From Flavitalea plasmicola (lineage in GTDB: Bacteria > Bacteroidota > Bacteroidia > Chitinophagales > Chitinophagaceae), in assembly GCF_030546645.1 (NCBI RefSeq), contig NZ_JAUOTO010000003.1:588956-652955 (forward strand): a DNA stretch of 64,000 bases. Reading direction: 5' to 3'. Positions 6,753-33,474 of the stretch are shown piece after piece. The position numbers and the translations under genes were made by a program. The notes beneath the pieces are model-generated. The model had not been told where the DNA came from. It saw only the letters and a program-made list of their open reading frames with translations, and did not search any database. Position 1 is the stretch's first letter. Each line of letters starts with the position of its first letter.

Positions 6753-8328
6753 CAGCGAGATCAATAAGCGCAAGACTTTTGCCATCATATCCCACCCCGA
6801 TGCCGGTAAAACGACCCTGACGGAGAAATTCCTCCTTTTTGGCGGCGCCATTCAGACTGCCGGGGCAGTAAAAAGCAACAAGATCAAAAAGCATGCGACC
6901 AGCGATTTTATGGAGATTGAAAGGCAGCGCGGTATCTCCGTGGCCACCTCCGTGATGAGCTTCGAATATAAAGGCATGCTGGTGAACCTCCTGGATACCC
7001 CCGGTCACAAAGATTTCGCTGAAGACACTTACCGTACCCTTACGGCCGTGGACAGCGTCATCCTGGTCATCGACAGCGTCAACGGGGTGGAAGCCCAGAC
7101 CCGCCGTCTGATGGAAGTATGCCGTATGCGGGATACCCCCGTCATCGTGTTCATCAATAAAATGGACCGGGATGGGAAGAACCGTTTTGACCTCCTGGAA
7201 GAAATCGAAAAAGAGTTGAATATCCAGCTGCACCCCATGACCTGGCCGATCAACAGCGGAAAGGATTTTAAAGGTGTTTACAATCTTTATGATAAGAACC
7301 TCGTCCTGTTCACTGCCAATACAAAAGCAGCAGATGAGGATACCCTGCGTATCGATAGCCTGGATAGTTCGCTCCTGGAAGAGCGGTTGGGGGAAAAGGA
7401 CGCCGCGACGTTGCGGGAAGACGTGGAGCTGGTGGACGGTGTCCATGGTGAACTGGACGTGGACGACTACCTTGGCGGCAAGGTAGCACCCGTTTTCTTC
7501 GGCAGCGCCATCAATAACTTTGGGGTACGGGAAATGCTGGACACTTTTATCCGGATCGCCCCGACACCCCGCAGCCGCGAAACCTCCACCAGGCACCTGG
7601 ATGTGGAAGAAGATAAGTTTAGCGGCTTTATCTTTAAGATCCATGCCAACCTGGACCCCAAGCACAGGGATCGGATTGCATTCCTCCGGGTCTGCAGCGG
7701 AAAGTTCGAAAGGAATAAATATTTTCACCATGTACGGTTGGACAAGGACGTACGCTTCAGCAATCCCTATACTTTTCTCGCACGTGATAAGGATGTCATC
7801 GATGCTGCTTATCCGGGCGATGTGGTAGGGCTGTTCGACACCGGTAACTTTAAGATAGGAGATACCCTCACGGAAGGGGAGGATTTCTTCTTTACAGGCA
7901 TCCCATCCTTTTCACCGGAGATCTTCAAGGAAGTAGTGAACAAGGACCCTATGAAGACCAAGCAACTGGAGAAAGGGCTGCTGCAGCTCACGGATGAAGG
8001 TGTCGCCCAGCTATTTACCCAATATGGCGGCAATAAGAAGATCATCGGCTGCGTGGGCGAATTGCAGTTCGAGGTGATCCAATATCGCCTGCTGCATGAA
8101 TATGGCGCTTCGGTCCAGTTCAACGCAATGCCGTTCTATAAGGCTTGCTGGATCACCAGCGCCGATCCCAAAAAGCTGGAGGAGTTCACTCGGTTTAAAC
8201 ACGCTAATATCGCAGAGGACAAAGACGGCTACATCGTCTACCTGGCCCAGAGCGAATGGTTCCTGAATACCGAAAGGACTAATAACCCGGCTATCGAATT
8301 CCATTTTACTTCAGAAATACACAAGTAG
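6739..8328 (+). CDS. prfC: peptide chain release factor 3 (RF3)
   Basis: 529 residues with the start chosen here ([16 protein letters not shown]), the same length as the E. coli protein; the frame is open upstream to 6580 but that part overlaps the flippase gene. GTPase motifs are all present: SHPDAGKTT (G1), ERQRGISVA (G2), [11 protein letters not shown] (G3), NKMDRDG (G4) and GSA (G5), followed by the beta-barrel domain and an RF3-type C-terminal domain. RF3 uses GTP to remove RF1 and RF2 from the ribosome after peptide release. The gene appears to stand alone with its own -7 box. Its leader carries a repeat motif and an overlapping short frame that may control it. Confidence 0.97.
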
Positions 8329-13974: not shown

Positions 13975-14012
13975 CCCGGAGATAACCTGGAGCACCCGAA
14001 TAACAATCAAAC

Positions 14013-14060
14013 CGACACGAAAAACGGCCAAATCGACACACTTATTGCTATTTTCGACAC
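14013..14060 (+). promoter_or_regulatory. triple YGACAC direct repeat with 21-bp period (copy 1), probable activator site
   Basis: CGACAC occurs at 14013, 14034 and 14055, exactly 21 bp apart; the second and third units share CGACACACTTAT. The last unit starts 43 bp before the -7 box of the downstream T9SS gene. A matching array lies at 32507-32554 before a LamG lipoprotein gene. Two-turn spacing of direct repeats is typical of LytTR-type regulators such as AgrA. Confidence 0.65.
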
Positions 14061-14097
14061 ACTTATCAAATATGATAATATGTACGCGTTTTTGATA

Positions 14098-18208: not shown

Positions 18209-19894
18209 TTATCGCTCTCCCAGGCGGCCGCCGATGTCCAGATGGTAACGGCGGGCAGTGTCCAGTGCAATGTCGTATCCGGCATCGGCATGACGGATCA
18301 CTCCCAGTCCGGGATCGTTGCGCAATACGCGTCCCAAACGCGCGGCTGCTTCAGCTGTCCCATCGGCAACGATGACCATGCCTGCATGAATGCTGTAGCC
18401 CATCCCAACACCTCCGCCATGATGGAGACTGACCCAGCTGGCTCCTCCTGCCGTATTCAGCAGGGCATTCAGCAACGGCCAATCGGCAACGGCATCGCTG
18501 CCATCCTTCATTGCCTCTGTCTCCCTGTTCGGGCTGGCCACGGAGCCCGTATCCAGGTGATCGCGACCGATGACAATGGGTGCTTTTACCTTTCCTTGCC
18601 TGACCAGCTCATTAAAGGCCAAACCGGCTTTTTCCCTTTCACCTTGCCCAAGCCAGCAGATCCTGGCAGGCAATCCCTGAAAAGCTATCTTTTCTTTCGC
18701 CAACTGAAGCCAGCGCTGCAGGCTGGCATTTTCCGGGAAAAGGCCGGCAATCACTTCGTCCGTGACAGCGATGTCAGCCGCATCGCCGCTGAGGGCTGCC
18801 CAGCGGAACGGCCCCTTACCTTCACAGAACAATGGACGTATGTAGGCGGGTACAAACCCTGGAAAATCAAACGCATTTTCCAGGCCCTTCTCCTTAGCCC
18901 TGGCGCGAAGGTTATTGCCATAGTCAAATGTGATCGCGCCGAGTCCCTGCATCTCCAGCATCAATTCAACATGGCGCCGCATGGACCGGTAAGCGTAGTC
19001 GATATATTCCTGCGGATTATCCGTCCTGAGCACTTTTGCCTGCTCATAGCTTATCTCATGCGGCCAGTAGCCGATGAGGGGGTCATGGGCAGAGGTCTGG
19101 TCCGTCAGCGTATCGGGTATGCAATTGCGTTGGATCATCCGCTCCAGCAGCAAGACGGCATTGCAAAGGACGCCGATGGACAGCGCCTGTCCTTTTTCTT
19201 TGGCTTCCAGGGCTTTGTCGATCGCTTCGTCTATGTCGCGGACCTTGATGTCAAGGTACCTTGTTTCCACCCGCTTGTCGATCCTCCACTCCTCCACTTC
19301 GGCGATCAGCGCAACTCCGCCATTCATCGTAATGGCCAGTGGCTGCGCTCCACCCATACCGCCCAGGCCCGCTGTGACGTTCAGCGTGCCTTTCAACGAT
19401 CCGCTGAAATGTTTGGCAGCGGCGGCGGCATAGGTCTCATAGGTGCCTTGTACAATACCCTGGCTGCCGATGTATATCCAGCTGCCGGCCGTCATCTGGC
19501 CGTACATCATGAGTCCCTTCTTTTCCAGCTCATCGAAGTGCTCCCAATCCGCCCATTTAGGCACAAGCTGCGAGTTGGAGATAAGTACACGGGGGGCGTC
19601 GCGATGTGTCCGCAGAATGCCCACTGGCTTACCGCTTTGTACCAGCAGGGTCTCATCTGCTTCCAGGTCTTTCAGCGCTTTGATGATCAGGTCCAGTGCT
19701 TCGAAATTACGGGCTGCCTTACCCCGGCCTCCATATACGATGAGCTCGTCGGGCCTTTCGGCCACTTCGGGGTCCAGGTTATTGAGCAGCATGCGGAGGG
19801 CAGCCTCCTGTATCCAGCCTTTGCATTGCAGCTGAGACCCCGTAGGTGTTTTGTATTTGACTGGATCGTAATGCCTGAAAGTAGTTGTGCTCAT
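18209..19894 (-). CDS. hutU: urocanate hydratase
   Basis: 561 residues from the ATG at 19894 ([19 protein letters not shown]); an upstream in-frame ATG adds 8 residues but would run into hutH. Conserved blocks of the NAD-dependent urocanase family are present: [33 protein letters not shown] (dinucleotide binding), [32 protein letters not shown] and [15 protein letters not shown] near the C-terminus. It converts urocanate to imidazolonepropionate, step two of histidine breakdown. The start codon is separated from the hutH stop by one base, so translation is probably coupled. Confidence 0.97.
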
Positions 19895-19895
19895 G

Positions 19896-21464
19896 TCAGA
19901 TGATTTTAAAAGCTTCAAATGTGCTGTTCAGATCGACGCCTTTCGCAGTGGCGGCTTCATCCACCTTCTTTACAAAGGAATGATCCCGGATGATGGTGCG
20001 CAATTGCAGAATATCTTCCGAAAAGATCCGGTCCTCACTGGCAAACCCGACAAAGTTACGGGCGTATTCATGGGCGGCTTCAAGTATTTCGCTGCTTCTC
20101 AGCGGCCGGCGGAACTCAATGGCCTGGCAGGCGCTCATCAGCTCGATGGCCAGGATATATTCTAAATTATCCAGCACCAGGCTGAGCTTGCGTCCGCTGA
20201 TACTGCCCATGCTGACATGATCTTCCTGTCCCAGGGAGGTGGGAATGCTGTCGGCACTGGCCGGGAAGCAAAGCGTCTTATTCTCCGTTACCAGCGCTGC
20301 TGTCGTATATTGAGGGATCATAAAACCGCTGTTAAGCCCTACATTTTTCATCAGCAGCAGCGGAAGCCCCCATTTACCTTCCAGCAGCAGGTAACACCGA
20401 CGGTCCGATATATTTCCGATCTCGGCCGCCGCCAGACAGGCATAGTCCAACGGCAGCGCCAGGGGCTGGCCGTGGAAATTACCCCCGCTGATCGTATCGC
20501 CCGCCCCTAAAATGATAGGATTATCAGTGACTGCATTCAGCTCTGTTTCGGTGAGCGCTCGGAGATGTTGCCAGGCATTGCGGGAGGCCCCGTGCACCTG
20601 GGGCATACAACGAAGGGAATAAGGGTCCTGTACGCGACCGCAATCCACATGGCTTTGCATGATGGCGCTGTTGTTCAGCAGGAGCCGGAGCCGCTGGGCC
20701 ACCAGCGTTGTGCCGGCGAAAGGCCGCAGCCGGTGTAGTCGTTCATCAAAAGGTGCCTTGGTGCCTGTGAGGGCCTCCAGGCTCATGGCGCCGATGATAT
20801 CGGCGGCTTCCAGGCAATAATGCAGCCGCTGGACGCCACTGGCGGCAAAAGCCAGGATGAATTGCGTACCGTTGATAAGGGCCAGCCCTTCCTTCGGACC
20901 CAACTGAAGAGGGGCGATCCCGAACAGGTCCAGCACTTCCCGGGCCGGCCTCCGGAGACCCTTGTGAAATACTTCTCCCAATCCTATCAGGGGCAGAAAA
21001 AGATGGGCGAGAGGGGCCAGGTCGCCGGATGCTCCAACCGAACCTTTTTCGGGCACCACGGGAATGACGTCATTATCGATATGCCAGCTGATACGTTGCA
21101 GGGTTTCCAGCCGGACGCCGGAAAAACCCTGGGCCAGGGCATGGATCTTTGTAATGAGCATGATACGCGCGATCGGCAAAGGGATCGGATCACCTACACC
21201 CACGCTGTGGCTCTGGAGGATCTTATGCTGCAGCGTACGGGTATCCTCCTCCGAGATCCTGGTATCGGCCAGGATGCCAAAACCGGTGTTGATACCATAC
21301 ACCGTAATATTGCGCTGGACGATGTCGGATACATGTTGCTGGCTGGCCAGCACTTTGGCGACGGCGCCAGGGGAAAGCTGTCCTTTCCGGCTGCCTTCAG
21401 CCAGGGCCATCACTGCCCCTATATCCAGGACGTCTTCGCCGTAATGGAAGATCTTTTCATTCAT
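19896..21464 (-). CDS. hutH: histidine ammonia-lyase
   Basis: 522 residues, usual for the family (about 505-525). The MIO prosthetic group forms from Ala-Ser-Gly in [17 protein letters not shown] near residue 145. YGINTGFG (about 55) holds the active-site Tyr loop, and [15 protein letters not shown] and [14 protein letters not shown] are also conserved. The enzyme deaminates histidine to urocanate. It is the first gene of a hutH-hutU pair; purB follows. The ATG is only 4 bp behind a TATTTTTG box, suggesting a leaderless message. The remaining hut genes are some 16 kb away on the other strand. Confidence 0.96.
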
Positions 21465-21468
21465 CGGC

Positions 21469-21476
21469 CAAAAATA
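21469..21476 (-). promoter_or_regulatory. -7 promoter box of hutH, 4 bp before its ATG
   Basis: TATTTTTG on the minus strand, a full TAnnTTTG match. The message would start at or beside the initiation codon. No -33 box recognised. Confidence 0.5.
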
Positions 21477-21545
21477 ACGGCTTTTGACGGATTCCTTTTC
21501 TACTTATGCAGGTTGCGGAACAGGATGGACGAAACGGTGCTTAAA

Positions 21546-22292
21546 CTATTTAAGCAGCCTTCGAAGGAACTCCTCGCGGCGCCGGCTGGCGACCTCGATC
21601 GTATTACCGTCTTCCATCACCACATATCCCCCTCTTCCCTTATGGTACTTCTGGATCTTATGGAGGTTGATGATGTGCGAATTATGCACCCGGCAAAAGA
21701 TGGCGGCAGGCAGCAGGTCCTCATATTCCTTGATATTACGGGTCGCGATTATCTGTTCACCGTTCGTCAGGTAGATCGTGGTATAGCTGCCCTTGGCTTC
21801 AAAGCGCATAATGTCCTTGATAGGAATGAACACCAGCCCCGTCAGGGTAGGAACGGCCATTTTCTGCTGGGTGAGCTGGAAGGTCTCCACATTGTACAGG
21901 AGGGTTTCCATCTGGTCGATAAAGTTCTTTCCCTGCACTTCCCGCATGGCCCTTTGCAGGGCCGCCTGGAGATCATCGATGTCCACCGGTTTCAGCAGGT
22001 AGTCCACCGCACTGTACTTGAAGGCCCGGATGGCATAATTGTCAAATGCCGTGACAAAGATGACCTGAAAATCGATAGGCTGCAGCTGGTTCAACAGATC
22101 GAAAGCGTTGCCCTGCGCCATCTCGATATCCAGGAAAACCAGGTCTGGTTTTGCGCTCTGGATAGTGTGTACGCCCATTTCCACGCCGTCGGCTTTACCG
22201 ACAATCGTTACTTCAGGGCAATATCGCTCCAGGAGCCTTTCCAGCACCCTGATGCTGTCGATTTCATCATCGATCAATACTGTTCTGATCAT
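21546..22292 (-). CDS. LytTR-family response regulator
   Basis: 248 residues. A receiver domain (about 1-118) starts MIRTVLIDDEIDS with the acidic pair, has the phospho-acceptor Asp at about 55 (LVFLDIEM), the VTA Thr region and LLKP Lys. A LytTR DNA-binding domain fills about 140-245 (RFEAKGSYTTIYLTNGEQIIATRNIKEYEDLL ... FCRVHNSHIINLHKI). It overlaps the upstream sensor kinase gene by 4 bp and should be its partner. LytTR proteins usually bind pairs of short direct repeats about 21 bp apart; two such arrays of YGACAC occur in this window and are candidate targets. Confidence 0.95.
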   Translation of the reverse strand: MIRTVLIDDEIDSIRVLERLLERYCPEVTIVGKADGVEMGVHTIQSAKPDLVFLDIEMAQGNAFDLLNQLQPIDFQVIFVTAFDNYAIRAFKYSAVDYLLKPVDIDDLQAALQRAMREVQGKNFIDQMETLLYNVETFQLTQQKMAVPTLTGLVFIPIKDIMRFEAKGSYTTIYLTNGEQIIATRNIKEYEDLLPAAIFCRVHNSHIINLHKIQKYHKGRGGYVVMEDGNTIEVASRRREEFLRRLLK

Positions 22293-25219
22293 ATGGTATG
22301 TTTTTGATAGGCTGGATCGAACTTCGGAAATTTTACGATCACCCTGGTGCCCGATGCCTCTCCGTTGGCCTCTTTCAGGTCGATGATCTCCACTGTGATC
22401 TCCTCTTCGTTGGCGGCATTGATCAGCCGGATACGGTCCGCCGTAAGAGACATGCCCCTCGACTGGTATTCGATGTGCTCCCGCGTCTTGTAGCTGGCGG
22501 CTTTTTCGCGACCGATGCCGTTGTCCTCGATAGCGAATACAAGCAGCCTTTCCTCCTGACTGATGTTAATGCGTATATATCCTCCGGCGGATCTGCGATG
22601 ACGCAGTCCATGCCGCATGCAATTCTCTACATAAGGTTGAAGGATCATGGGAGGAATATACAGCGATTGGGCGTGCTTCAGCGAAGGGGCCACTTCGATG
22701 GAATAGTTCATTTTTTCCTTGAACCGAAGCTTTTCCAGCGAAAGATAGGTAGACAGATAATCTATCTCATCTGCCAGCGTGATATACGCTTTCGTGGAAT
22801 TGTTCAAGGTGGCGCGTATCAGCTTGGCAAAACCCGTGATATACTTATTGGCGGCGAATACGTCCTGGTCGAATACATATTGCTGGATGGAATTCAGGCA
22901 ATTGAAGATAAAGTGCGGGTTCATCTGCGCCTGCAGCGCCACGTGCTCCATTTCCATCAGCCGTGTGTTCAACATTTCTTTTTCCTCCTGCTGCCGGCGG
23001 ATGCTCCTGATGCGCAGACTGACGAACAGCCAGGTAAGGGAAAGGAAGGAGAGGAGGATGACCATGTAGAACCAGGTGGTCCGCCAGAAAGGAGTATCGA
23101 CGTTGAAGCGGATGGAACGTACTCCGCTCTCTACCCCGAACTTATTAACAGCCGCTAGCTGCAGCTCATAATCGCCGAAAGGCAGGGTGGGGTATTCCAG
23201 GAAAGTCTCCTTCGTGCTTTTCCAGTTGCTGTCCAGTCCGATCAAACGGTAGCGATAAGTGATATTGCCTGTGGACTTATAAGAGATGCCGGCAAAATCA
23301 AAGCGTATATTGTTCTCCGTATGACGCAGCTGCAGGAAAGGAGTATCAGGCAACCTGTCCCTGCCGGCATTGGTGATGCCCAGCAACACCAGACGGCAGC
23401 CGGCATTCAGGAAAGAGTTAGTGGCGTTGAAATAGCTCATCCCCTCCGGCGTTCCCGCAAACACAGTTTGTCCGGCAACGTAGACCGTATTGATCATGTT
23501 GGAAGCCAGGCCGTCCTTGGCGGTATAATGAGTAATGGAATACTCATGTCTGCTGATGTCCACCTTGTTCAGGCCTTTGTCCGTACCGACCCACAGTTCG
23601 TTGTCATGTGTGGCGAGCGCCCGGCAGATATCGCTGCTTAGTCCTTGTTTGACGGTTAGATAGGCCTGGGGCTTCCCGTCAACCAGGCCGATGACTCCTG
23701 CATCATAGGTCGCTACCCAGATCGTATGCCCCTTCGATACTGCAATGGACGAGATCCTCCTGTGGAGAAAGGGGATGCTATCTCCCAGGAATCGGGGTGG
23801 CCTGCCGCAGCATAATTTATAAAGCCCGTTGAGAGTACCGAAATACAACGTATCCTGATCCAGGAACAGGGCAGTACACCTTTCTCTCCAAAGCGTATCT
23901 TTAATCTTGAGTGACATTATATCCAGCAGGAACAGCCCCTTGCCATTGCCTATGATCAATTCCGAGGTATTCTTTCTCACAGCCACTTTCACCGGCATAG
24001 CCACTTCCATCTTGTATTCTTTGTACCGGGAAGTAGCCAGTCCCATATGGTCATGGCAGCCATAGACCAGGCCTCCGTCAAGGGTTCTATCTACAAACGT
24101 CGTGAAACCATAAGTAAAAAGAGCGACCTGATGTCCCTGCAGCGGCCCCTCCGGCAAAGGATATCTGAAGATCATTTCGTGATTGGCGCCGATCAGCAGT
24201 TCGCTGCCCACCTTGTTAATATATATAGCCGCACATGGCCTCGCGCGTAAATCGGGAAGGATCATATTTCTGATCTCATTGGAATTCAGGCGGTAGATCC
24301 CTTGCCCTACCGTACTGAACCAGAGATTACCTTCGTCGTCCGAGTAGGTCCTGCTCACTTGTACTCCTGGCAGGTAGGTCCTTTCCCTGCCAGTGTTTAC
24401 ATTCAGCTCAATTACGCCCGTGGCTGTATTTTCATATATTAGGCTATCTCCCTGGACGCCAAAAGATTCGTGGGTAAAATGCGACGCTTCGAATGGCCGG
24501 TGAAAGAACTTGCCTGTTTTCAGACTGCGAATGGAGGACTCCCTTATTGCTTCATGCCATATGGCAAGCCAGCTGTTGACGGCAACTCCAAGCGTATTCA
24601 GGGGCGAGTGCGGCGCGTGGAACAGCAGGGAGAAACGACCGTTCGACAGCCTGTAGAAGTCTTCGTCAGCCATCACCACAAAAGAATTGCCGTCGCCACC
24701 ACCAACGGCATAGAATCGGTCAACAGTCTTGCCATCGATGGCCTTGTAGTCAGTGACGCTTCCCTCAGGCGTTATGATGTGCAGCGCCTTCTGCTCCTGC
24801 AGGAGGATATTCCCATCCCTGTCTTCGGCAAAACCTTCGATATTATTGGCGCAATGGATCTTTTGCAGCAGGGTATCATTGTGCTGATTGTGGATCTTTC
24901 CCTTATAGTAGTAGCAGATGGAGGAATGAAAAGCGCCCATCCAGACCCGTCCTCTGGAATCACAGAACATCTGCAGCACTTCCATATCCGGAAGGCCGTC
25001 AGCCGTGGTAAAGCTGACGAAATGGGTCCCGTCAAACCTGCTCAGCCCCGTCTCCGTGCCGATCCACATAAACCCTTCCTTATCCTGTACGATACAATAG
25101 GCCGTTGAGCCGGCCAGGCCATCGCTGATATCGTAATGCGTATAGCTGTATTCCTGCGAAAGTGCGGAATAAGACAGCGTGATAAGGGCAATGATCAGCA
25201 GGAATAGGCTTGGCTTCAT
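22289..25219 (-). CDS. membrane sensor histidine kinase, two-component-propeller + Y_Y_Y + LytS-type kinase
   Basis: 976 residues. Signal peptide about 1-21; a long extracytoplasmic part with reg_prop repeats (DKEGFMWIGTETGLSRFDG, DDEGNLWFSTVGQGIYRL, THDNELWVGTDKGLNKVD) forming two predicted propellers; a Y_Y_Y-like domain about 630-710 (YRYRLIGLDSNWKS ... GDYELQLAAVNKFG); one membrane helix about 716-735; a coiled coil; then a His_kinase domain with His at about 769 (QMNPHFIFNCLNSI) and an ATPase domain with EDNGIGREKA. It senses something in the periplasm and should phosphorylate the LytTR partner. Its ATG overlaps the preceding glycosyltransferase stop (ATGA), placing it inside the glycan operon. 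Confidence 0.93.
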   Translation of the reverse strand: MKPSLFLLIIALITLSYSALSQEYSYTHYDISDGLAGSTAYCIVQDKEGFMWIGTETGLSRFDGTHFVSFTTADGLPDMEVLQMFCDSRGRVWMGAFHSSICYYYKGKIHNQHNDTLLQKIHCANNIEGFAEDRDGNILLQEQKALHIITPEGSVTDYKAIDGKTVDRFYAVGGGDGNSFVVMADEDFYRLSNGRFSLLFHAPHSPLNTLGVAVNSWLAIWHEAIRESSIRSLKTGKFFHRPFEASHFTHESFGVQGDSLIYENTATGVIELNVNTGRERTYLPGVQVSRTYSDDEGNLWFSTVGQGIYRLNSNEIRNMILPDLRARPCAAIYINKVGSELLIGANHEMIFRYPLPEGPLQGHQVALFTYGFTTFVDRTLDGGLVYGCHDHMGLATSRYKEYKMEVAMPVKVAVRKNTSELIIGNGKGLFLLDIMSLKIKDTLWRERCTALFLDQDTLYFGTLNGLYKLCCGRPPRFLGDSIPFLHRRISSIAVSKGHTIWVATYDAGVIGLVDGKPQAYLTVKQGLSSDICRALATHDNELWVGTDKGLNKVDISRHEYSITHYTAKDGLASNMINTVYVAGQTVFAGTPEGMSYFNATNSFLNAGCRLVLLGITNAGRDRLPDTPFLQLRHTENNIRFDFAGISYKSTGNITYRYRLIGLDSNWKSTKETFLEYPTLPFGDYELQLAAVNKFGVESGVRSIRFNVDTPFWRTTWFYMVILLSFLSLTWLFVSLRIRSIRRQQEEKEMLNTRLMEMEHVALQAQMNPHFIFNCLNSIQQYVFDQDVFAANKYITGFAKLIRATLNNSTKAYITLADEIDYLSTYLSLEKLRFKEKMNYSIEVAPSLKHAQSLYIPPMILQPYVENCMRHGLRHRRSAGGYIRINISQEERLLVFAIEDNGIGREKAASYKTREHIEYQSRGMSLTADRIRLINAANEEEITVEIIDLKEANGEASGTRVIVKFPKFDPAYQKHTI

Positions 25220-26223
25220 AACACCTTATAAAAATAAGGCTTATTTCGGATGATGGTCAGGCTCTTGCCAAGGACAATCTTAAAATTTTTACAATATTGC
25301 CGGAACTGAAAAAAAGTATAACGGGCACGGCGCCCATAGAATACCCGGGATACCCATACTCCTGCAAGGAACACGGGTACTTCCAGGAGATAACATACCA
25401 CATGGAACAGGAACCAACCAACGCCAAACTGCTTGCGTATGCGGACAAATGTCGAGAGCATGATCTGTAGGCCCTTGCGGTCGTAAAGATTATAGTAGCC
25501 TTTACCTTCCGATCCGAAGGTCTCGTTAGCCGAAGCGCCTTGCAGGTGTACGACATGCAGCTGCCCGTAGATGCACATTTTCCCCTGGCGTCGCAGCCGG
25601 CTGCACCATTCCGCCTCTTCGGCATAAAGAAAAAAATCCTCGTCCATCAGACCAGCCAGCTTGATAGCAGCCTTCTTCACCATCAGGAAAGCGCCATTGA
25701 TCCAATCCACTTCCACCAGGTCGCCTGCCTCCGGCACATTGGGCTTTGCGACCTTGAACAGCTCTCCCGCCTTTTTCACCAGGCTGCCCAGATAGGGCAG
25801 GGGCAGCAGGTAGTTCAGGCCCCCTTTCATGAAGTAATTTCCGGAGATCTGGGGCGTCCGGTCCAGGTTCAGCAGTTGAACGCCACAGGCGATGTAAGAT
25901 GAATCCCTGAAATTGGCATAGGACCTCTCAATTGCACGGTCCTCTATCAGCGTGTCGGAATTTAGCAAAAGCACGGTATTGCTTTGCGAGATCCGGATCC
26001 CCTCATTGTTCGACCGGGCAAAACCCGCATTGTAGTCCATGGCCAGCCACCTTATCTCCGGGAAGATCTGCATGACACGCTGCCGGCTGTCATCTCCCGA
26101 AGCATTATCCACTACAATGACTTCGAAAGACAGATCGCCCGCCTGTGCATACACTGTCCGCAGGCAATCGATCACCAGGTCAGGTGTCTTATAATTTACG
26201 ATGATGATGGAAAGGTCCGTCAA
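25216..26223 (-). CDS. glycosyltransferase family 2 (rhamnosyltransferase-like)
   Basis: 335 residues from a TTG start at 26223. This start is chosen because TTGA overlaps the stop of the preceding gene exactly as ATGA does elsewhere in this operon, and because the fold begins at once (LSIIIVNYKTPDLVIDCL). The longer ATG frame (from 26358) has a junk-like N-terminus inside the neighbour. GT2 features: VIVVDNASGDDS, LNSDTLI (DxD-like), then WINGAFLMVKKAA and EEAEWCSRLRRQG. The C-terminal 60 residues are hydrophobic. It should transfer a sugar, perhaps rhamnose, to a lipid-linked glycan at the inner membrane. Confidence 0.85.
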   Translation of the reverse strand: MTDLSIIIVNYKTPDLVIDCLRTVYAQAGDLSFEVIVVDNASGDDSRQRVMQIFPEIRWLAMDYNAGFARSNNEGIRISQSNTVLLLNSDTLIEDRAIERSYANFRDSSYIACGVQLLNLDRTPQISGNYFMKGGLNYLLPLPYLGSLVKKAGELFKVAKPNVPEAGDLVEVDWINGAFLMVKKAAIKLAGLMDEDFFLYAEEAEWCSRLRRQGKMCIYGQLHVVHLQGASANETFGSEGKGYYNLYDRKGLQIMLSTFVRIRKQFGVGWFLFHVVCYLLEVPVFLAGVWVSRVFYGRRARYTFFQFRQYCKNFKIVLGKSLTIIRNKPYFYKVL

Positions 26224-27158
26224 TGTTTTTTCTTTTTGGTAAAGCAAAGCCGGAGAAAGGCCCCCCATCCTGTGAGGCTCAGTGCCGCCAGGTGCTTCAG
26301 CTTCATCAGCGGCACATATAGAACCGTGACGAATGCCTGTCTCCGGGAGAGGTCCCATAATTTGCCGAGATACAGTCTGTACTTGCGCGCATTATTCTTC
26401 TGCACGGCATTGAAGACCGCAAACTTCCGGTATAGCAGCGCCAGCTGTGGCGGCGGGAGCTTCTTCTCCAGGCCCGTCATTTGTCTTTCGATCATGATCT
26501 TCGCAAGGTCATTTACCACGTCTCCCTGTGTCGAGGTGAGAGAGGAGGGATGTTCCCGGTAGAAATAAAGGTCGTATCCCGGAAGGTAGTAAAAGTTGAA
26601 TTGCAGGAAGGCCCGCATAAAGAAATCATAATCTTCGATCAGGAAAGCGCCCGGGTTATACCCTTTGTTTGCCCGGAATACCTCCTCTTTATACAGGAAA
26701 CATGCGCCGCATCCCAACCAGTCCGTAAAGCTGTCATAGATGTTGTGGAACGTCCGGGTGCCGAATACATGGCACTCTTCGTCGACAAGGGAATAGTCCG
26801 TGTATACAAGGTCCCGGTGAGGATCTGCCTCAAGAATGGCAACCATCTTTTCCAGGGCATCGGGCGCATAATAATTATCATCGGATGTCCATGTATGGTA
26901 TTTACCTCTTGCCTGTGCGAAACCGGTATTCAGCGAAAGGGGCAACTTCTTGTTGAACTCATTATGGATGATCTTGATACGGGCGTCCTGTCTCCCCAGC
27001 TCTTCAATGATCGATGCCGTATCATCGGTGGAGCAATCGTTGACGATGATCAGTTCGAAGTCCGTAAAATGCTGTGCCAGACAGCTCCCGACAGATTGCC
27101 GGATATACCGGGACCCATTATAGGTAGGCAGGACAATGGAAACCAGGGGGGCACTCAT
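26220..27158 (-). CDS. glycosyltransferase family 2
   Basis: 312 residues of GT-A type. It begins VSIVLPTYNGSRYIRQSVGS with ELIIVNDCSTDDT for nucleotide binding, WTSDDNYYAPDAL around the metal-binding Asp pair (about 90-100), and IEDYDFFMRAFLQF around the probable catalytic ED. The C-terminal third is basic and partly hydrophobic, probably membrane-associated. Donor and acceptor are unknown. It overlaps the wecB-like gene by 4 bp and the next glycosyltransferase by 4 bp, so all three are translationally coupled. Confidence 0.9.
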   Translation of the reverse strand: MSAPLVSIVLPTYNGSRYIRQSVGSCLAQHFTDFELIIVNDCSTDDTASIIEELGRQDARIKIIHNEFNKKLPLSLNTGFAQARGKYHTWTSDDNYYAPDALEKMVAILEADPHRDLVYTDYSLVDEECHVFGTRTFHNIYDSFTDWLGCGACFLYKEEVFRANKGYNPGAFLIEDYDFFMRAFLQFNFYYLPGYDLYFYREHPSSLTSTQGDVVNDLAKIMIERQMTGLEKKLPPPQLALLYRKFAVFNAVQKNNARKYRLYLGKLWDLSRRQAFVTVLYVPLMKLKHLAALSLTGWGAFLRLCFTKKKKH

Positions 27159-28270
27159 AACGCTTCGTTTAGTAATATATCCGTGATCTTTTTGGCCGTG
27201 GTCCCGTCGCCATATGGGTTGACAGCCTTCGCCATCCGTTCGTATACCGCAGGCTCATCCAGCAGTTGCCGGGCATGGGTAAGTATCTTTTCCCTGGAAG
27301 TCCCTACCAGTATGGCAGTGCCCGCATCTATCCCTTCCGTCCGCTCCGTTACGTCGCGGATCACCAGTACTGGCTTGCCTAACGCAGGCGCCTCTTCCTG
27401 GATACCGCCGCTGTCGGTGATAACAAAATAACACTTGTCCAGCAGCCACACTAACTGTGGGTATTCGACAGGAGGTATCAGGTGGATCGACGGTACTCCT
27501 TTCATCCGGGCGTTCACCACTTCCTGGATATGGGGGTTCAGGTGTACAGGGTAAACGATCTGCACGTCCGGGTAGGCACGGACCAGGTCCACCAATGCAT
27601 CGCAGATGTTCTCGAATGGCTTGCCAAAGCTTTCCCTCCTGTGACCCGTTACCAGGATCAATTTTTTTGCCGGGTCCAGGAAAGGGAAGCTGTCCGCCTG
27701 TCCGCCTGCTTTCCTGACCTTATCGACGCCGTACAGCAGGGCGTCAATTACAGTATTGCCCACTTCGAAGATCTTTCCTCTGGTAGCTTCTTTCACAAGG
27801 TTATCTGTTGCACGGGAGGTAGGCGTGAAATGTATATCGGCCAGGGGACCGATCAGCTTGCGATTGATCTCCTCGGGGAATGGCGAGTATTTATCATTGC
27901 TTCTAAGGCCTGCTTCGACATGCGCAATGGCAACCTTGCTGTAGAAAGCCGCCAGCGCACCCACAAAAGCGCTGGTCGTATCCCCCTGGACAAGCACCAG
28001 GTCGGGACGGCTTTCAGCCATGACAGGCTGAAGCAGGCTCAGCCCTTTCGACGTTATATCAAAGAGGGTCTGGCCGGGCTGCATCAGGGAAAGGTCATAG
28101 TCGCCTTTGATACCGAAGAAATGCAACACCTGGTCCAGCATTTCCCGATGCTGCCCCGTGAGACAGACCTTTACATCCAGCTCCTGCGGGTATTGCAGGC
28201 AGGCATGGATGATGGGAGCCATTTTTATCGCCTCGGGCCTTGTTCCGAATATAAATAATAATTTACGCAT
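27155..28270 (-). CDS. wecB: UDP-N-acetylglucosamine 2-epimerase (non-hydrolysing)
   Basis: 371 residues, usual length. Conserved family blocks: FGTRPEAIKMAPI at the N-terminus, CLTGQHREMLDQVL, VLVQGDTTSAFVGALAAFY, HVEAGLRSND, PFPEEINRKL, LVTGHRRESFG, and SGGIQEEAPALGKPVLVIRD towards the end. The enzyme interconverts UDP-GlcNAc and UDP-ManNAc and so supplies ManNAc-type sugars to surface glycans, in keeping with the glycosyltransferases around it. It overlaps the upstream glycosyltransferase gene by 8 bp and the downstream one by 4 bp. No UDP-ManNAc dehydrogenase is in view. Confidence 0.95.
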   Translation of the reverse strand: MRKLLFIFGTRPEAIKMAPIIHACLQYPQELDVKVCLTGQHREMLDQVLHFFGIKGDYDLSLMQPGQTLFDITSKGLSLLQPVMAESRPDLVLVQGDTTSAFVGALAAFYSKVAIAHVEAGLRSNDKYSPFPEEINRKLIGPLADIHFTPTSRATDNLVKEATRGKIFEVGNTVIDALLYGVDKVRKAGGQADSFPFLDPAKKLILVTGHRRESFGKPFENICDALVDLVRAYPDVQIVYPVHLNPHIQEVVNARMKGVPSIHLIPPVEYPQLVWLLDKCYFVITDSGGIQEEAPALGKPVLVIRDVTERTEGIDAGTAILVGTSREKILTHARQLLDEPAVYERMAKAVNPYGDGTTAKKITDILLNEAL

Positions 28271-29417
28271 GCGCAGTGTATGTATTCATCAGTTTATCCA
28301 GCAAAGTTTTCCCCGGAGCGGGATCATACAATTCAAGTGCCCGTTGGTGGGCCCGCAGTCCTATGGAAGGCCATTCTTCCCTGGCCGACCAGGCCCTTTC
28401 CAGGGCTTTATCCAGCGTGGGGATAGCCGCCGCGTCCGCCAGGAAGCCCGAAATACCATCTTCGATCCATTCGGCCGCGCCACCCACATCGGTGGCTACA
28501 CAAGGACGGCCACAAAGCATGGCCTCTACAATGGCCAACGGCATGCCTTCCATATGTGAGGGCATCAGCAATACCTGGTTGTCCCGCCAGACCTGCCGGA
28601 TATCGCCTACTCTGCCGTGGAAGAAGACCCTGCCTTTCAGTCCGTAAAATTCCGCCAGCTCCTGCAGGTATTGTTTATCGGGGCCGTCGCCATAGATATT
28701 CAGTATCCAATTCCTTTCCTGCCATTTGCTTTCCTTTAATACGGACAGTAGCATATCTTGTCCTTTGTGGGCGGTCAATAAATTACCTACGAGTGCCCAG
28801 TGTACCGCATCTTGCGAAGGAAAGGGTAAGGCAGAGATATCGGGCATGTTGACGGGGTTTCGCACCTGTGCCGCATTCGGGATATCCCGGCAAAGTTGGC
28901 GCCTGGCCGTCTCCTCACTGCGTCGCGAGATAAAGAATACCTTCTCCGCCCGGCCATATGCCGCCAGGATCGTATCCCGCTCCGAAGGGCCAAATCCACG
29001 ATCCTGCTCTCCATTGAGATGCCCGATGATAAAAAACCTTGGGCCTCCGGCCAGCAAAGCTTTCATCAGCTGTTTTTCAACGCCGATGGAATAACAGGTG
29101 CCGTTGTATAGTACGATGTCCGGACGCTGCCGGAACAAAGGGACAAATGGGTCGCGGATCCTTTTTTTGATGAAATTGATCAGCATTCTGATAGCCCGTG
29201 CCTTGGGACTGAGTCCCGGACGATAATACCCCGGGCGCCGGAATAGCTGCGCTCCCAGCTGCCGAAGCTCCTTCAGACGCGGATGGAGTGTGTCAAAGTC
29301 GAATGAAAGATGCATCACCGTATGTCCTTCCGCCATAGCCTGTTTGGCCATGGCGAACCAGAGCTCCTCGCTGCCTCCCCAGGGCTCCCGGATCATGGAA
29401 ATAACGGCTATCTTCAT
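28263..29417 (-). CDS. glycosyltransferase, GT4/GT1-type (GT-B fold)
   Basis: 384 residues. The N-terminal part (MKIAVISMIREPWGGSEELWFAMA) is a typical donor-independent Rossmann half. The second half has the GT1 pattern: WILNIYGDGPDKQYLQELA, GRVFFHGRVGDI, VLLMPSHMEGMPLAIVEAMLCGRPCVATDVGG, in which EGMPLAIVEAM holds the E-x7-E motif for nucleotide sugar binding. It adds a sugar to the glycan assembled by this operon. It overlaps the methyltransferase gene upstream by 4 bp and wecB downstream by 8 bp. Confidence 0.92.
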   Translation of the reverse strand: MKIAVISMIREPWGGSEELWFAMAKQAMAEGHTVMHLSFDFDTLHPRLKELRQLGAQLFRRPGYYRPGLSPKARAIRMLINFIKKRIRDPFVPLFRQRPDIVLYNGTCYSIGVEKQLMKALLAGGPRFFIIGHLNGEQDRGFGPSERDTILAAYGRAEKVFFISRRSEETARRQLCRDIPNAAQVRNPVNMPDISALPFPSQDAVHWALVGNLLTAHKGQDMLLSVLKESKWQERNWILNIYGDGPDKQYLQELAEFYGLKGRVFFHGRVGDIRQVWRDNQVLLMPSHMEGMPLAIVEAMLCGRPCVATDVGGAAEWIEDGISGFLADAAAIPTLDKALERAWSAREEWPSIGLRAHQRALELYDPAPGKTLLDKLMNTYTAHA

Positions 29418-30133
29418 ATCTTATTCCTCACTTTTTTACAAAGGATGACATTGTTGAGATAAAGGTCTTTCCGGTCGGGCAGCAGCCTGCTGAACAGTAG
29501 CGCTATGATATTGAGGCTGGTATAGGAGAAGAACCGGAATGCGCTCCGGACAACAGGTATTTTCCGGAATTTGGGATTGATATGCTGGTGAAGGTACATG
29601 ATCCACAATTGGACGACCACCTCCACATTATTGCCTGTCTTGTCCTGGTGCACTACCTCAAAACCGTTCCGCTCGAAAAGGCTTCGCAGCCCGTAGGAAG
29701 AATAGCGGGCAAAATCGTTAGGAATCTCGTGTTCACAGATCGCAAAAGGACAGGTGGCAAGGATTAATCCACCTGTCTTCATCACCCTGTTCAGTTCTTT
29801 CAGCGCTTCTTCGAGGTTGAAAACATGCTCGAATACTTCGCTGCTGAAGACGGCGTCAAAACTGTCATCGCCGAAGGGAATGCGCCTGCCGTCATAAAAA
29901 ACGTCTATCTGTTCGTTCAGGTGCGGATGGCCGGGGTTTTCAAAGTCGATGCCGGTATATTCGTCCACGTTGAACAGCGACCGGTAGGGCTTACTTCCGC
30001 AACCGAAATCCATCAGGCGTCCTTTAAGCAGGGGAGCATATTGTGCGATGCTTTTCAGTAGTCTGTTACGGGTGAGAAAAGAGGGAAAGGTTATCCCCGG
30101 ATCGAATTCATATGCCAGATTCGGGTATTTCAT
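29414..30133 (-). CDS. class I SAM-dependent methyltransferase
   Basis: 239 residues with the Methyltransf_11 pattern: LLKGRLMDFGCGSKPYRSLF (motif I, about 35-54), GIDFENPGHP (acidic loop after beta 2), DDSFDAVFSSEVFEHVFNLEEAL (motif II) and LNRVMKTGGLILATCPF (motif III). A basic C-terminal extension of about 70 residues follows. In this setting it probably methylates a sugar or glycan intermediate, although the acceptor is not evident. Overlaps both neighbours by 4 bp. Confidence 0.9.
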   Translation of the reverse strand: MKYPNLAYEFDPGITFPSFLTRNRLLKSIAQYAPLLKGRLMDFGCGSKPYRSLFNVDEYTGIDFENPGHPHLNEQIDVFYDGRRIPFGDDSFDAVFSSEVFEHVFNLEEALKELNRVMKTGGLILATCPFAICEHEIPNDFARYSSYGLRSLFERNGFEVVHQDKTGNNVEVVVQLWIMYLHQHINPKFRKIPVVRSAFRFFSYTSLNIIALLFSRLLPDRKDLYLNNVILCKKVRNKI

Positions 30134-30888
30134 CCTATTTGTTTGACGGCAATCCGGCCCGTCTCGTCGATACGGTTTAGCAACAGCGGCTGTTTGTTGG
30201 CTGCGAAATATTCGTCCACCGCTTTTTTAGCGCCTGCCCAGAAACCATAATCATCCAATATCAACACACCCCCTTTTGCCAGCAGTGGATAGAGATGATG
30301 CAGCTCATGCCTGGTGGACTCATACCAGTCCGTATCCAACCGCAATAGTGCAATGCCGGTAGGCAAGGTCGATGGGATCGTATCTTCCACCTTCCCCTTG
30401 ACATAATGGATCTTTTCCCTGGGATAGCGGGTGGTATCCATGCCTGCCCGGACAGTCTCAAGGGTGGAATACGCCCAGACCGTATTTTTTTCCTTGTCGA
30501 TATTGTTTCTAAGAAGATCGCTGGCGGATTCACCGAAATAAGTCTTATCCATTTCTTCCGGCGCTGACATACCTTCGTAGGTGTCGTAGAGATATAGTTC
30601 TCTCGAAGTAACTTTTAGATGCTGCAAAGTCTCAGCCACTGCCATCATACTACCGCCTTTCCAGACGCCGCATTCCACGATGGCACCCGGGATATCGTTT
30701 GCCACAACGTATTTTACAGCCTCGATGAGCGAATAGATCCGCTCCGCGCTGGTCATCGTGTTGTTCCTGACTTTTCCGTAAACATCCTGGTGCAACGGTT
30801 CAAAATCGGGCGGAAGGCTCCTGGGCTTGTTCCTTTTCACAATATCGTACCCAAGCTTATGTATTTGCTGGCCCAGCCATTTCTTCAT
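30130..30888 (-). CDS. TylF/MycF family O-methyltransferase
   Basis: 252 residues. Family marks are SAERIYSLIEAVKYVVAND, GAIVECGVWKGGSMMAVAETL (SAM binding), ELYLYDTYEGMSAPEE, and IALLRLDTDWYESTRHELHHLYPLLAKGGVLILDDYGFW with the metal-binding Asp residues. Macrocin O-methyltransferase relatives methylate sugar hydroxyls, so a role in decorating the glycan made by the following genes fits. It lies 12 bp behind mqnA and overlaps the next methyltransferase by 4 bp. Confidence 0.9.
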   Translation of the reverse strand: MKKWLGQQIHKLGYDIVKRNKPRSLPPDFEPLHQDVYGKVRNNTMTSAERIYSLIEAVKYVVANDIPGAIVECGVWKGGSMMAVAETLQHLKVTSRELYLYDTYEGMSAPEEMDKTYFGESASDLLRNNIDKEKNTVWAYSTLETVRAGMDTTRYPREKIHYVKGKVEDTIPSTLPTGIALLRLDTDWYESTRHELHHLYPLLAKGGVLILDDYGFWAGAKKAVDEYFAANKQPLLLNRIDETGRIAVKQIG

Positions 30889-30900
30889 AGATATAATGCT

Positions 30901-31647
30901 TTAGCGTGCAATATAATACAAAAACTTTTCCAATCCCGCCCGTTTGCGGTCGTCCAGCCGGTAGTCCAGATAACGTGTAAAATAATCGCGCAAATCGAAG
31001 ATGTGATACGGATTTTGTTCCACTACTTTATCGAGCTGCTGCAATCCCTGGCAATTGGCCTCGTCGAATTTCTTTATGAAAGCCTTGTCAAGGGGCTTGT
31101 TACTGATCCAGGCGGCGAAAACAAAGGGCAATCCCGTCAACTTTTTCCAGGCCTCGCCCAGATCGTATATATAAGGAGAAACCTTTCTTTGCTCCAATGC
31201 ACGGTCGCCGATGACAACACCGCCTGTGGCGCCATTGATATGATTGCGGAAGTCGCGCCCCCCGTCCTCCAGCTGGGGGGTCACGCGCCAGTATTCTTTC
31301 AGCAGGATCCGCGCCAGCTGTACTGAAGTACGGCTCTGATAGTCCAGCAGCACTTTCTCCAGCTTTTCCACCGGCGACTCGCTGAAAAGACATACGGAAG
31401 CAACGGGGCCGTCACTGCCGATGCAATAGTCTCCATTGATGTAATACTCCTTCATACGGGGAATAACAGCCACGGGCACCAGCCCCATATCGATCTCGTC
31501 CCTTAATAGCATATCGGCGATCCGGGATGGATAATCTATGATCAGCTCAATTTCCTCCATGATGGGAGATTGTTGGATGCCGTAAAGCAACGGTTTGGTA
31601 TTCAAATAACTAACTGCGCCTATTCTAATTTTTCTTTCCAATGCCAT
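30901..31647 (-). CDS. mqnA: chorismate dehydratase of the futalosine menaquinone pathway
   Basis: 248 residues. The start IRIGAVSYLNTKPLLYGI matches MqnA, and DYPSRIADMLLRDEIDMGLVPVAVIPRM, CLFSESPVEKLEKVLLDYQSRTSVQLARILLKEYW and IGDRALE are family blocks of this periplasmic-binding-protein-like enzyme. It dehydrates chorismate to 3-enolpyruvyl-benzoate, the first committed step. Other mqn genes are not in the window. It is the first gene before the glycan operon with only 12 bp in between, so glycan genes may be read from its promoter. That promoter overlaps the one of the divergent LamG lipoprotein. Confidence 0.9.
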   Translation of the reverse strand: MALERKIRIGAVSYLNTKPLLYGIQQSPIMEEIELIIDYPSRIADMLLRDEIDMGLVPVAVIPRMKEYYINGDYCIGSDGPVASVCLFSESPVEKLEKVLLDYQSRTSVQLARILLKEYWRVTPQLEDGGRDFRNHINGATGGVVIGDRALEQRKVSPYIYDLGEAWKKLTGLPFVFAAWISNKPLDKAFIKKFDEANCQGLQQLDKVVEQNPYHIFDLRDYFTRYLDYRLDDRKRAGLEKFLYYIAR

Positions 31648-31648
31648 G

Positions 31649-31679
31649 TTTGATTTGGCAGCAAAAGTATATATATTTG
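31649..31679 (+). promoter_or_regulatory. promoter of the first LamG lipoprotein
   Basis: TTTG (31649-31652), 19 bp, TATATTTG (31672-31679): a full Bacteroidota -33/-7 promoter. The start codon lies 33 bp beyond. Confidence 0.7.
31662..31669 (-). promoter_or_regulatory. -7 box of mqnA, interleaved with the divergent promoter
   Basis: TACTTTTG on the minus strand, 14 bp before the mqnA ATG. It lies between the -33 and -7 boxes of the divergent lipoprotein promoter, so polymerase can occupy only one of the two at a time. Confidence 0.55.
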
Positions 31680-31712
31680 CGCTTCGTAATTGAATACCTA
31701 AACCAGACCGTC

Positions 31713-32498
31713 ATGAAAAATGCTACGTCCGTATTCTTTGGCCTTGCCCTGCTTATTTCCCTCGGAACTGTTTTCTCCTGTAAAAAGGATCATAATCCAC
31801 CTCCCTCCAATGTCAATCTGAAAAAAGGATTGCTGCTTTACCTTCCCTTTAATGGTAGCTTTGCCGATTCCAGCGGCAATAACAATCCTGCCACCACCAT
31901 CGGAGGTGCGACACTTACCTATGATGAGCATGGATACGCTAATAGCGCTTTCGGAGCCACCGGCAATGGAGAGAAAGTATTGATTACAAACAATGGGTCA
32001 ATCAAGTTTGACACTGCTTTTACTGCTTCTTTTAACTTCATGGTTTGGGACCTTCGGAACCAGATCTTCGTGGGGCTCGTGGAGCATTCGAACGCCCATG
32101 GCCTCGCTTTCGACTGTGGCCTGAATGTACCCGGCGACGAGCAGTTTGAATTCGGCGCAGGTGATATCTCCAATGATTGTTCGAAGACCGTAGAGCAGAA
32201 TCCATATAATATTGCCGATTCCACCGGGTTTCGCGTCGCTCCAGGCAGTTGGTATAATGTCATTTGTGAGTACCACAATGGGACTATTACTACTTATATT
32301 AACGGAAAGTTCATTTCTTCCAAAACGGGTGCGGGCAGGAAGGCTCTGAACTGTCCCAATGCCCAGTTCATCGTGGGCGGCTGGTGGCAGAATGACCCTC
32401 AGTCCATCAATGGAAAGATTGACGAGGTCAGGTTCTACAATAGGGTACTGACCAAGGAGGAGATAACGGACCTGGCAAAGGATTTTCAGCAGAATTAA
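31713..32498 (+). CDS. LamG-domain lipoprotein, first of two paralogues
   Basis: 261 residues from ATG 31713 (MKNATSVFFGLALLISLGTVFSC); upstream in-frame ATG lies within mqnA sequence. The lipobox Cys is at about residue 23. The mature protein is one LamG/concanavalin-A-like jelly roll: KKGLLLYLPFNGSFADSSGNNN at the start and INGKIDEVRFYNRVLTKEEI at the end, as in the LamG part of the 1381-residue T9SS protein. Probably a surface- or periplasm-facing glycan-binding lipoprotein. It differs from its downstream paralogue mostly in the middle (about 110-170). Confidence 0.85.
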   Translation: MKNATSVFFGLALLISLGTVFSCKKDHNPPPSNVNLKKGLLLYLPFNGSFADSSGNNNPATTIGGATLTYDEHGYANSAFGATGNGEKVLITNNGSIKFDTAFTASFNFMVWDLRNQIFVGLVEHSNAHGLAFDCGLNVPGDEQFEFGAGDISNDCSKTVEQNPYNIADSTGFRVAPGSWYNVICEYHNGTITTYINGKFISSKTGAGRKALNCPNAQFIVGGWWQNDPQSINGKIDEVRFYNRVLTKEEITDLAKDFQQN

Positions 32499-32506
32499 CC
32501 CCCCTC

Positions 32507-32554
32507 CGACACAAAAACACCCCTGATTGACACACCTGTTGGAGATTCCGACAC
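32507..32554 (+). promoter_or_regulatory. triple YGACAC direct repeat with 21-bp period (copy 2), probable activator site
   Basis: CGACAC at 32507, TGACAC at 32528 and CGACAC at 32549, exactly 21 bp apart, as in the array at 14013. The last unit starts 45 bp before the -7 box and 22 bp before the TTG of the -33 region. Confidence 0.65.
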
Positions 32555-32570
32555 GCTGGTGAACTCTTGA

Positions 32571-32601
32571 TTGCAGCTCGCAGCGATATAGTTTACTTTT
32601 G
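32571..32601 (+). promoter_or_regulatory. promoter of the second LamG lipoprotein
   Basis: TTG (32571-32573), 20 bp, TACTTTTG (32594-32601). The start codon is 24 bp beyond. The 21-bp repeat array abuts the -33 region. Confidence 0.6.
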
Positions 32602-32625: not shown

Positions 32626-33474
32626 ATGAACCCGCTACCTTTTAAGAAAATAGCTGCAATATCTTTACTATCAGCTTTTTGTGTGGTATTTGCCTGTAAA
32701 AAAGAATCTCATGAACCGCCGCCTGTCAATTCCGACACTGCGGACCTGAAGAAAGGCCTATTACTCTACCTGCCCTTTACAGGCAACTTTGCCGATTCAA
32801 GCGGCAACAATAACCCGACATCAGCTCTTGGCGGCGCTTCCCTGACCTATGATGCCCACGGCTATGCCAACAGCGCCTTTGGTGGCACAGGCAATGGAGA
32901 GCGAGTGGTGGTGACCAATAATGGTTCTATTAAATTCGATACTGCTTTTACATTCTCCGCCAGCGTACTGTCAAGGACAACGAATGGCCAGTCTTTTGTA
33001 TCGATGGTGAAAAGGGCTACTGGTACAGGCGTTACCTTTGGTCTTGGCTACGGGATACCGGGTATTCCTCATGTGAATTTCACCGTGTCCAACAGCCTGG
33101 CGACCTGCGATGACATCGCCAGTGAAGCCAATACGATTGTAGATACTTCCAACCTGACCTTACAGCCCGAGGCCTGGTACAATCTGGTGGTGGTATTCCA
33201 TAAAGGAACCCTGAAGATGTATTCCAATGGTCAGCTGATCTCAACAAAAACAGGGGGCAGTCAGACAGTCCCCATCTGCCCGAATGCAGACCTGGTTATT
33301 GGCGGTTGGTGGGATTATGGCACCGCACAATCAATCGATGGTAAGATGGACAATGTCCGGCTGTACAACCGTGTGCTTACACCCGCAGAGATCGCGTTGC
33401 TGGCAACGCATTATCAGCCTTCATCCAACAGCGTCACGAAGGGCGTGAACCAAGGCACCCAGACTCGCTGGTAA
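32626..33474 (+). CDS. LamG-domain lipoprotein, second of two paralogues
   Basis: 282 residues from ATG 32626 (MNPLPFKKIAAISLL), nine codons inside a longer open frame; this start follows the promoter and gives a clean lipoprotein signal with Cys in VVFACKKES. The LamG domain runs from KKGLLLYLPFTGNFADSSGNNNP to IDGKMDNVRLYNRVLTPAEI. A tail of about 25 polar residues extends beyond its paralogue. It has its own promoter with a triple 21-bp repeat shared with a T9SS gene, so the two paralogues are probably controlled differently. Confidence 0.85.
   Translation: MNPLPFKKIAAISLLSAFCVVFACKKESHEPPPVNSDTADLKKGLLLYLPFTGNFADSSGNNNPTSALGGASLTYDAHGYANSAFGGTGNGERVVVTNNGSIKFDTAFTFSASVLSRTTNGQSFVSMVKRATGTGVTFGLGYGIPGIPHVNFTVSNSLATCDDIASEANTIVDTSNLTLQPEAWYNLVVVFHKGTLKMYSNGQLISTKTGGSQTVPICPNADLVIGGWWDYGTAQSIDGKMDNVRLYNRVLTPAEIALLATHYQPSSNSVTKGVNQGTQTRW

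Follow-up and report, generated by a model that had tools for sequence, protein, structure and literature searches.

The locus raises the question of whether two short arrays in a window of 64,000 nucleotides from Flavitalea plasmicola, each repeating the hexamer YGACAC and each standing before a gene for a surface protein or lipoprotein, mark a common regulon, and which regulator would bind them. The features concerned, all on the plus strand, are the following.

14011–14077, plus strand: three-unit LytTR-type array 1, recognized by its period and profile scores
14098–14106, plus strand: predicted -7-like box, imperfect, recognized by sequence and promoter geometry
14114–16816, plus strand: CHU_C-type T9SS surface protein, predicted target (Pfam CHU_C, 8.6e-17; arrays precede similar proteins in G030, G117 and G245)
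32505–32571, plus strand: three-unit LytTR-type array 2 (units 32505–32525, 32526–32546 and 32547–32567, exact 21-bp period)
32570–32601, plus strand: predicted Bacteroidetes promoter (-33 ATTG at 32570–32573, -7 TACTTTTG at 32594–32601)
32626–33474, plus strand: LamG lipoprotein, predicted target (Pfam Laminin_G_3, 3.8e-20; arrays precede its orthologs)

A preliminary description had placed YGACAC at 14013, 14034 and 14055 and again at 32507, 32528 and 32549, and all six positions are found in the sequence with an exact 21-bp period; across the whole window these two arrays alone contain YGACAC pairs spaced 18–25 bp apart. The -7 box lies 45 bp after the last Y of array 2, as described. For array 1 the proposed position of the box, 43 bp after the last Y, holds, but the sequence there, TATTTTTAG, is not a perfect TAnnTTTG. 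The paralog just upstream of the LamG gene (31641–32498) had been said to lack an array, and profile scoring indeed finds no site before 31641. In both arrays unit 1 is degenerate, reading CACRAAAAA in place of CACRSTTAT.

Since the earlier comparison rested on a 6-base seed at two places, the two arrays might be alike by chance. We consider the probability of this negligible, as a held-out three-unit profile, trained on 36 arrays all from other genomes, gives array 1 a score of 54.8 bits and array 2 a score of 35.7 bits, whereas 40 simulated 64-kb windows (first-order Markov) reach at most 8.7 bits, and as arrays of this kind recur across many genomes; the comparison with simulated windows rules out a chance resemblance. 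A further profile (R2) scores the two arrays at 48.3 and 35.4 bits respectively.

The repeated unit is larger than YGACAC. It spans about 21 bp with the consensus aTCGACACRSYTATTGNCNAA, of which about 14 bases (TYGACACRSYTAT) are conserved and are followed by a weaker GNC/AA tail. A two-unit pattern run against the whole genome (G000; 8.73 Mb in 19 contigs) revealed further arrays sharing the extension RSYTAT, giving 13 arrays in F. plasmicola, about 11 of them beyond the pair in the window, whereas a control pattern gave 1 match. With a sequence-only profile built from eleven arrays (R1), arrays are found in 11 of the 33 genomes examined in the genus, the three richest carrying 12, 14 and 12, and under a strict family-wide filter they are present in 15 of 246 Chitinophagaceae genomes; 10 of the 103 genera of the family have them. 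G240, apparently the cultivable relative Niastella populi, has 20 arrays. When 56 arrays were registered by expectation maximization (EM), with only unit spacings of 20–22 permitted, most arrays have three units, spaced mostly by 21 bp (a 12-bp spacer) and in a minority by 20 or 22 bp. The unit consensus from this registration reads aTCGACACGSYTATTGNCNAA. The 9-bp core CACRSTTAT appears in the consensus of all three units on the same strand, the third unit terminates in TCGACACGSTTATGAAMT, and unit 1 carries the lowest information of the three.

The placement of the arrays is equally regular. Among 44 arrays TTT peaks 50–52 bp past the first base of unit 3, where a TAnnTTTG -7 box would stand, and a promoter spacer of 19–20 bp then puts the beginning of the -33 element about 10 bp beyond the last core; the -33 element itself is weakly conserved across arrays. 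Of the 13 arrays in the F. plasmicola genome, 11 lie outside open reading frames with a co-oriented start within 310 bp, and a twelfth has such a start at 379 bp, compared with 6.8% of random positions meeting the same rule, or 45% when random positions inside open reading frames are left out. One array (L075:7997–8063; G000:C15:347212) sits between two opposite-strand genes and has no co-oriented target.

The ends of IS21 and Tn7-like elements hold several transposase sites, each about 20 bp long, and the arrays could be remnants of such ends. However, their orientation and distance to promoters and genes are fixed, they occur in conserved synteny before orthologous genes, and no transposase was found among the downstream genes scanned with Pfam. 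We regard an origin from transposon ends as extremely improbable and have rejected it on the fixed gene orientation and the lack of transposases among the Pfam matches listed for the downstream genes.

What these arrays precede is also consistent. Across several genomes 61 of 77 arrays have a co-oriented open reading frame within 400 bp, and 45 of these 61 encode secreted proteins or lipoproteins by a crude signal-peptide rule, which missed some that are plainly similar. The Pfam domains of the targets include LamG, CHU_C, Por_Secre_tail, PKD, Ig and carbohydrate-binding domains, and the Pfam scan gave no match for several targets. A paralogous secreted family of about 480 residues (FPSRFFNRIQHKTASLD...), of which the member scanned had no Pfam match, recurs as an array target; among the array targets of G000, G004 and G018 it is the most frequent, and it is found again in the g72 genomes. 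Its members include:

L066:6485–7936, L069:8134–9561, L109:6481–7917 and others: members of the secreted family of about 480 residues

Among the targets that are not surface proteins are a TerC protein, a PMT-like transferase and hutU. The array is retained before LamG orthologs in G004, G018, G028, G030 and, more weakly, G001, and before genes for CHU_C-type T9SS proteins in the three genomes listed above; for the 14114 ortholog no array was found in G018, while G021 and G023 have theirs before hutU instead, so that the expectation that orthologous promoters keep the 21-bp period is borne out in part. The regulon proposed for two genes proves far larger, with 13 arrays in this genome, most of which stand upstream of genes for secreted or surface proteins, and the comparative evidence from sequence indicates that a surface-protein regulon with these arrays is real. 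The PorX-PorY-SigP system resembles the present one in tying two-component control to type IX secretion in Bacteroidota (PMC4800418). It differs in governing the machinery of secretion itself, by way of an ECF sigma factor, and neither a LytTR domain nor a repeat array is known to take part in it.

The form of the arrays points to LytTR regulators. LytTR operators consist of two direct or inverse repeats of 9–11 bp with a spacer of 11–13 bp (PMC4847170), often located 10 bp before the -35 element, as with BrsR, whose site is ACCACTTAT-12-ACCGCTTAT and lies 8 bp before -35 (PMC6193735). The arrays agree with this in repeat length, in their single orientation, in spacer length and in the gap of about 10 bp that separates the last core from the -33 element. 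The canonical operator has two repeats, whereas most arrays have three units, although several of the arrays adjacent to LytTR genes have two detectable units. Triple LytTR operators are known for RcoM1 and CoxC (PMC11347149), and the arrays share with these three direct repeats at a spacing of two helical turns near -35. The RcoM1/CoxC repeat differs (TTCNNGCA), and the proteins are CO-responsive regulators of cox genes in Paraburkholderia and Afipia; CoxC is a repressor whose site overlaps -35 (PMC11347149).

The paired operators of AgrA, ComE, BrsR/HdrR and YpdB are likewise built of head-to-tail repeats of about 9 bp with a 12-bp spacer, in the same orientation toward the gene, with the last repeat about 10 bp before -35 and a linked LytTR regulator gene (PMC6193735, PMC4847170). 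The present arrays differ from these in usually having three units, in the first bases of the core (they mismatch the ACCnCTTA-type consensus at the first two), in the Bacteroidetes -33/-7 promoter, and in the regulon served, which is one of surface proteins and has about a dozen genes in each genome. The LRS-like LytTR operons of Bacteroides, in the same phylum, also have direct repeats, which lie 11 bp upstream of a TAnnTTTG promoter, but these are two 11-bp units (TCCGGTATTCA type) with an 11-bp spacer, and the LytTR proteins are membrane-bound (PMC6193735).

A candidate regulator of this type is encoded within the window, between the two arrays, together with the following neighbors.

21546–22292, minus strand: LytTR response regulator, the best candidate to bind the arrays (Pfam Response_reg and LytTR)
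22289–25219, minus strand: sensor kinase, presumed partner (Pfam Reg_prop, Y_Y_Y and His_kinase; 4-bp overlap with the LytTR gene)
18209–21464, minus strand: hutU (18209–19918) and a hutH-like lyase gene (19896–21464), by Pfam and synteny

As in LytS/LytTR two-component systems, receiver and LytTR domains are combined in the product of 21546–22292 and the gene overlaps the His_kinase gene at 22289–25219; in its orthologs the phospho-acceptor Asp55 and Lys101 are invariant. The kinase-LytTR pair adjoins arrays in relatives as well. In G004, G018, G023 and G001 the ortholog lies a few kb from arrays, in the gene order kinase, LytTR, hutH, hutU, array, LamG, trehalose synthesis, with the array before hutU in G023; hutU and hutH are conserved neighbors in relatives, placed after the LytTR gene and ahead of the array of the LamG gene. 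In relatives the block corresponding to 18209–25219 runs collinearly with the LamG genes, whereas in the window the hut block is inverted and glycosyltransferase-like genes (25216–31647) come between the LytTR/kinase block and the LamG genes.

In other genomes the linkage is closer still. Arrays lie 2–45 bp past the LytTR stop codon in G020, G022, G030, G115, G133, G192, G205 and G255, and in G159 an array lies upstream of the kinase-LytTR operon. A position weight matrix (PWM) trained only on arrays of G000, G004 and G018 finds a two-unit site within 95 bp after the stop codon in 12 of about 90 LytTR genes, as against 0.09% of random windows. These 12 genes span about eight genera, and one belongs to a Saprospiraceae MAG outside the family (L240), where a two-unit array-like site (TTTTACACACTTAT...CGAATCACTTAT) directly follows a 42% identical LytTR gene, which suggests that the linkage of array and LytTR gene is older than the family. 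A clear 3' array follows 10 of 34 LytTR genes of at least 47% identity, the other 24 having none directly behind them, compared with 2 of 54 below 45% identity (Fisher p = 0.001); the corresponding shift in 3'-flank scores between close and distant LytTR genes is not significant (Mann-Whitney p = 0.07). Over the 246 family genomes, 12 of the 15 with arrays have a close LytTR ortholog (E <= 1e-75), as do 17 of the 231 others (Fisher p = 2e-10, uncorrected for phylogeny), and several of these other genomes have an array 2–45 bp past the LytTR stop codon that scores below the strict family-wide filter. In G028, which has 7 arrays, a close match was not found (best 38%; fragmented assembly).

In F. 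plasmicola itself there is no array at the 3' end of the 21546–22292 gene, and 3–4 of the 13 arrays lie within about 11 kb of any LytTR gene, a weak excess over the expectation of roughly 1.5, so that linkage is argued from the other genomes. With orthologs linked to arrays across genomes, the suggestion that this LytTR gene is the regulator gains strong support at the level of the subfamily, and a LytTR regulator of the 21546–22292 subfamily is, judging from these patterns, by far the best candidate for the binding protein.

The 21-bp period would also suit an AraC/XylS-type activator, as the AraC I1-I2 and XylS direct half-sites are about 21 bp apart, and the genome has 119 HTH_18 domains. 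Nevertheless, just 1 of its 13 arrays has an HTH_18 gene within about 10 kb (C15:352040), below the expectation from density, and in the relatives inspected it is LytTR genes, not AraC-type genes, that are seen repeatedly next to arrays. With HTH_18 genes not enriched near the arrays of this genome we rejected an AraC-type regulator, which we consider very unlikely.

Alternatively, the arrays may be LytTR operators on which a different LytTR protein acts, either the 46% identical paralog C14:126860 or another, the linkage to 21546–22292 being purely historical; with 49 LytTR domains in the genome, another paralog could be the binder. In favor of this, the kinase gene of C14:126860 stands divergently beside a T9SS gene that bears an array (C14:123879), and unit 1 of both window arrays is degenerate, but the proximity of orthologs of the 21546 gene to arrays in the four relatives named above argues against it, and we hold this alternative to be possible though rather unlikely.

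We propose, with considerable confidence, that the array is a triple LytTR operator through which a response regulator of the 21546–22292 subfamily activates a surface-protein regulon. This proposal builds on the sequence, period, number, placement and conservation of the arrays, their distance from the promoter, and their genetic linkage to a LytTR gene; from these we infer binding, its dependence on phosphorylation, activation rather than repression, and which of the two subfamily paralogs (C13:610504 or C14:126860) acts. In this model the array comprises three head-to-tail LytTR half-sites, and because each unit is a 9-bp core plus a 12-bp spacer, successive protomers would lie two helical turns apart on the same face of the DNA, with the last core stopping about 10 bp short of the -33 element. 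The sensor kinase (22289–25219) would drive phosphorylation of the regulator, which would then occupy the three units side by side and bring RNA polymerase to the -33/-7 promoter, so turning on about a dozen genes, mostly for secreted, lipoprotein and type IX surface proteins.

Some arrays behind LytTR genes may precede a small RNA. In G133, G205 and G255 the LytTR gene is followed by a two-unit array, a promoter-like TTGTAnTTTRG and then a near-identical segment of about 115 nt in which no gene is obvious. The segment closes with an intrinsic terminator (GGGGAGG...CCTCCCTTTTTT), beyond which lies a convergent gene that may share this terminator.

L167:8300–8560 (G133), L168:7560–7840 (G205) and L169:7130–7410 (G255): candidate small-RNA regions

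Rfam gave no match in the LytTR-adjacent regions, the candidate small RNA included. In L159 (reverse strand, oriented 7800–8000) and L090 (reverse strand, oriented 11324–11560) a terminator-like hairpin occurs within about 170 bp past the array with no co-oriented gene before it, a layout compatible with a short transcript after the array. Tentatively, the Chitinophagaceae LytTR module may have had the ancestral form kinase, LytTR, array and small RNA, as in the one genus of these three genomes, with the operator later enlarged to three protomer sites and spread to a dozen surface-protein promoters in the genus of F. plasmicola; we would not put this above a speculative possibility.

In the literature searched, largely open papers, nothing was found on LytTR regulators in Chitinophaga, and none of the titles and abstracts listed for LytTR in Bacteroidetes describes a surface-protein regulon of this kind; the operator type is already known. 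Large genomes of Bacteroidota can hold many LytTR regulators, as here, together with many surface proteins, and with a defined motif, a specific candidate regulator and predicted targets numbering about a dozen in each genome, the LytTR surface-protein regulon becomes directly testable. The array model can be used to find targets in related genomes, and the triple array offers a natural system for cooperation among three LytTR protomers.
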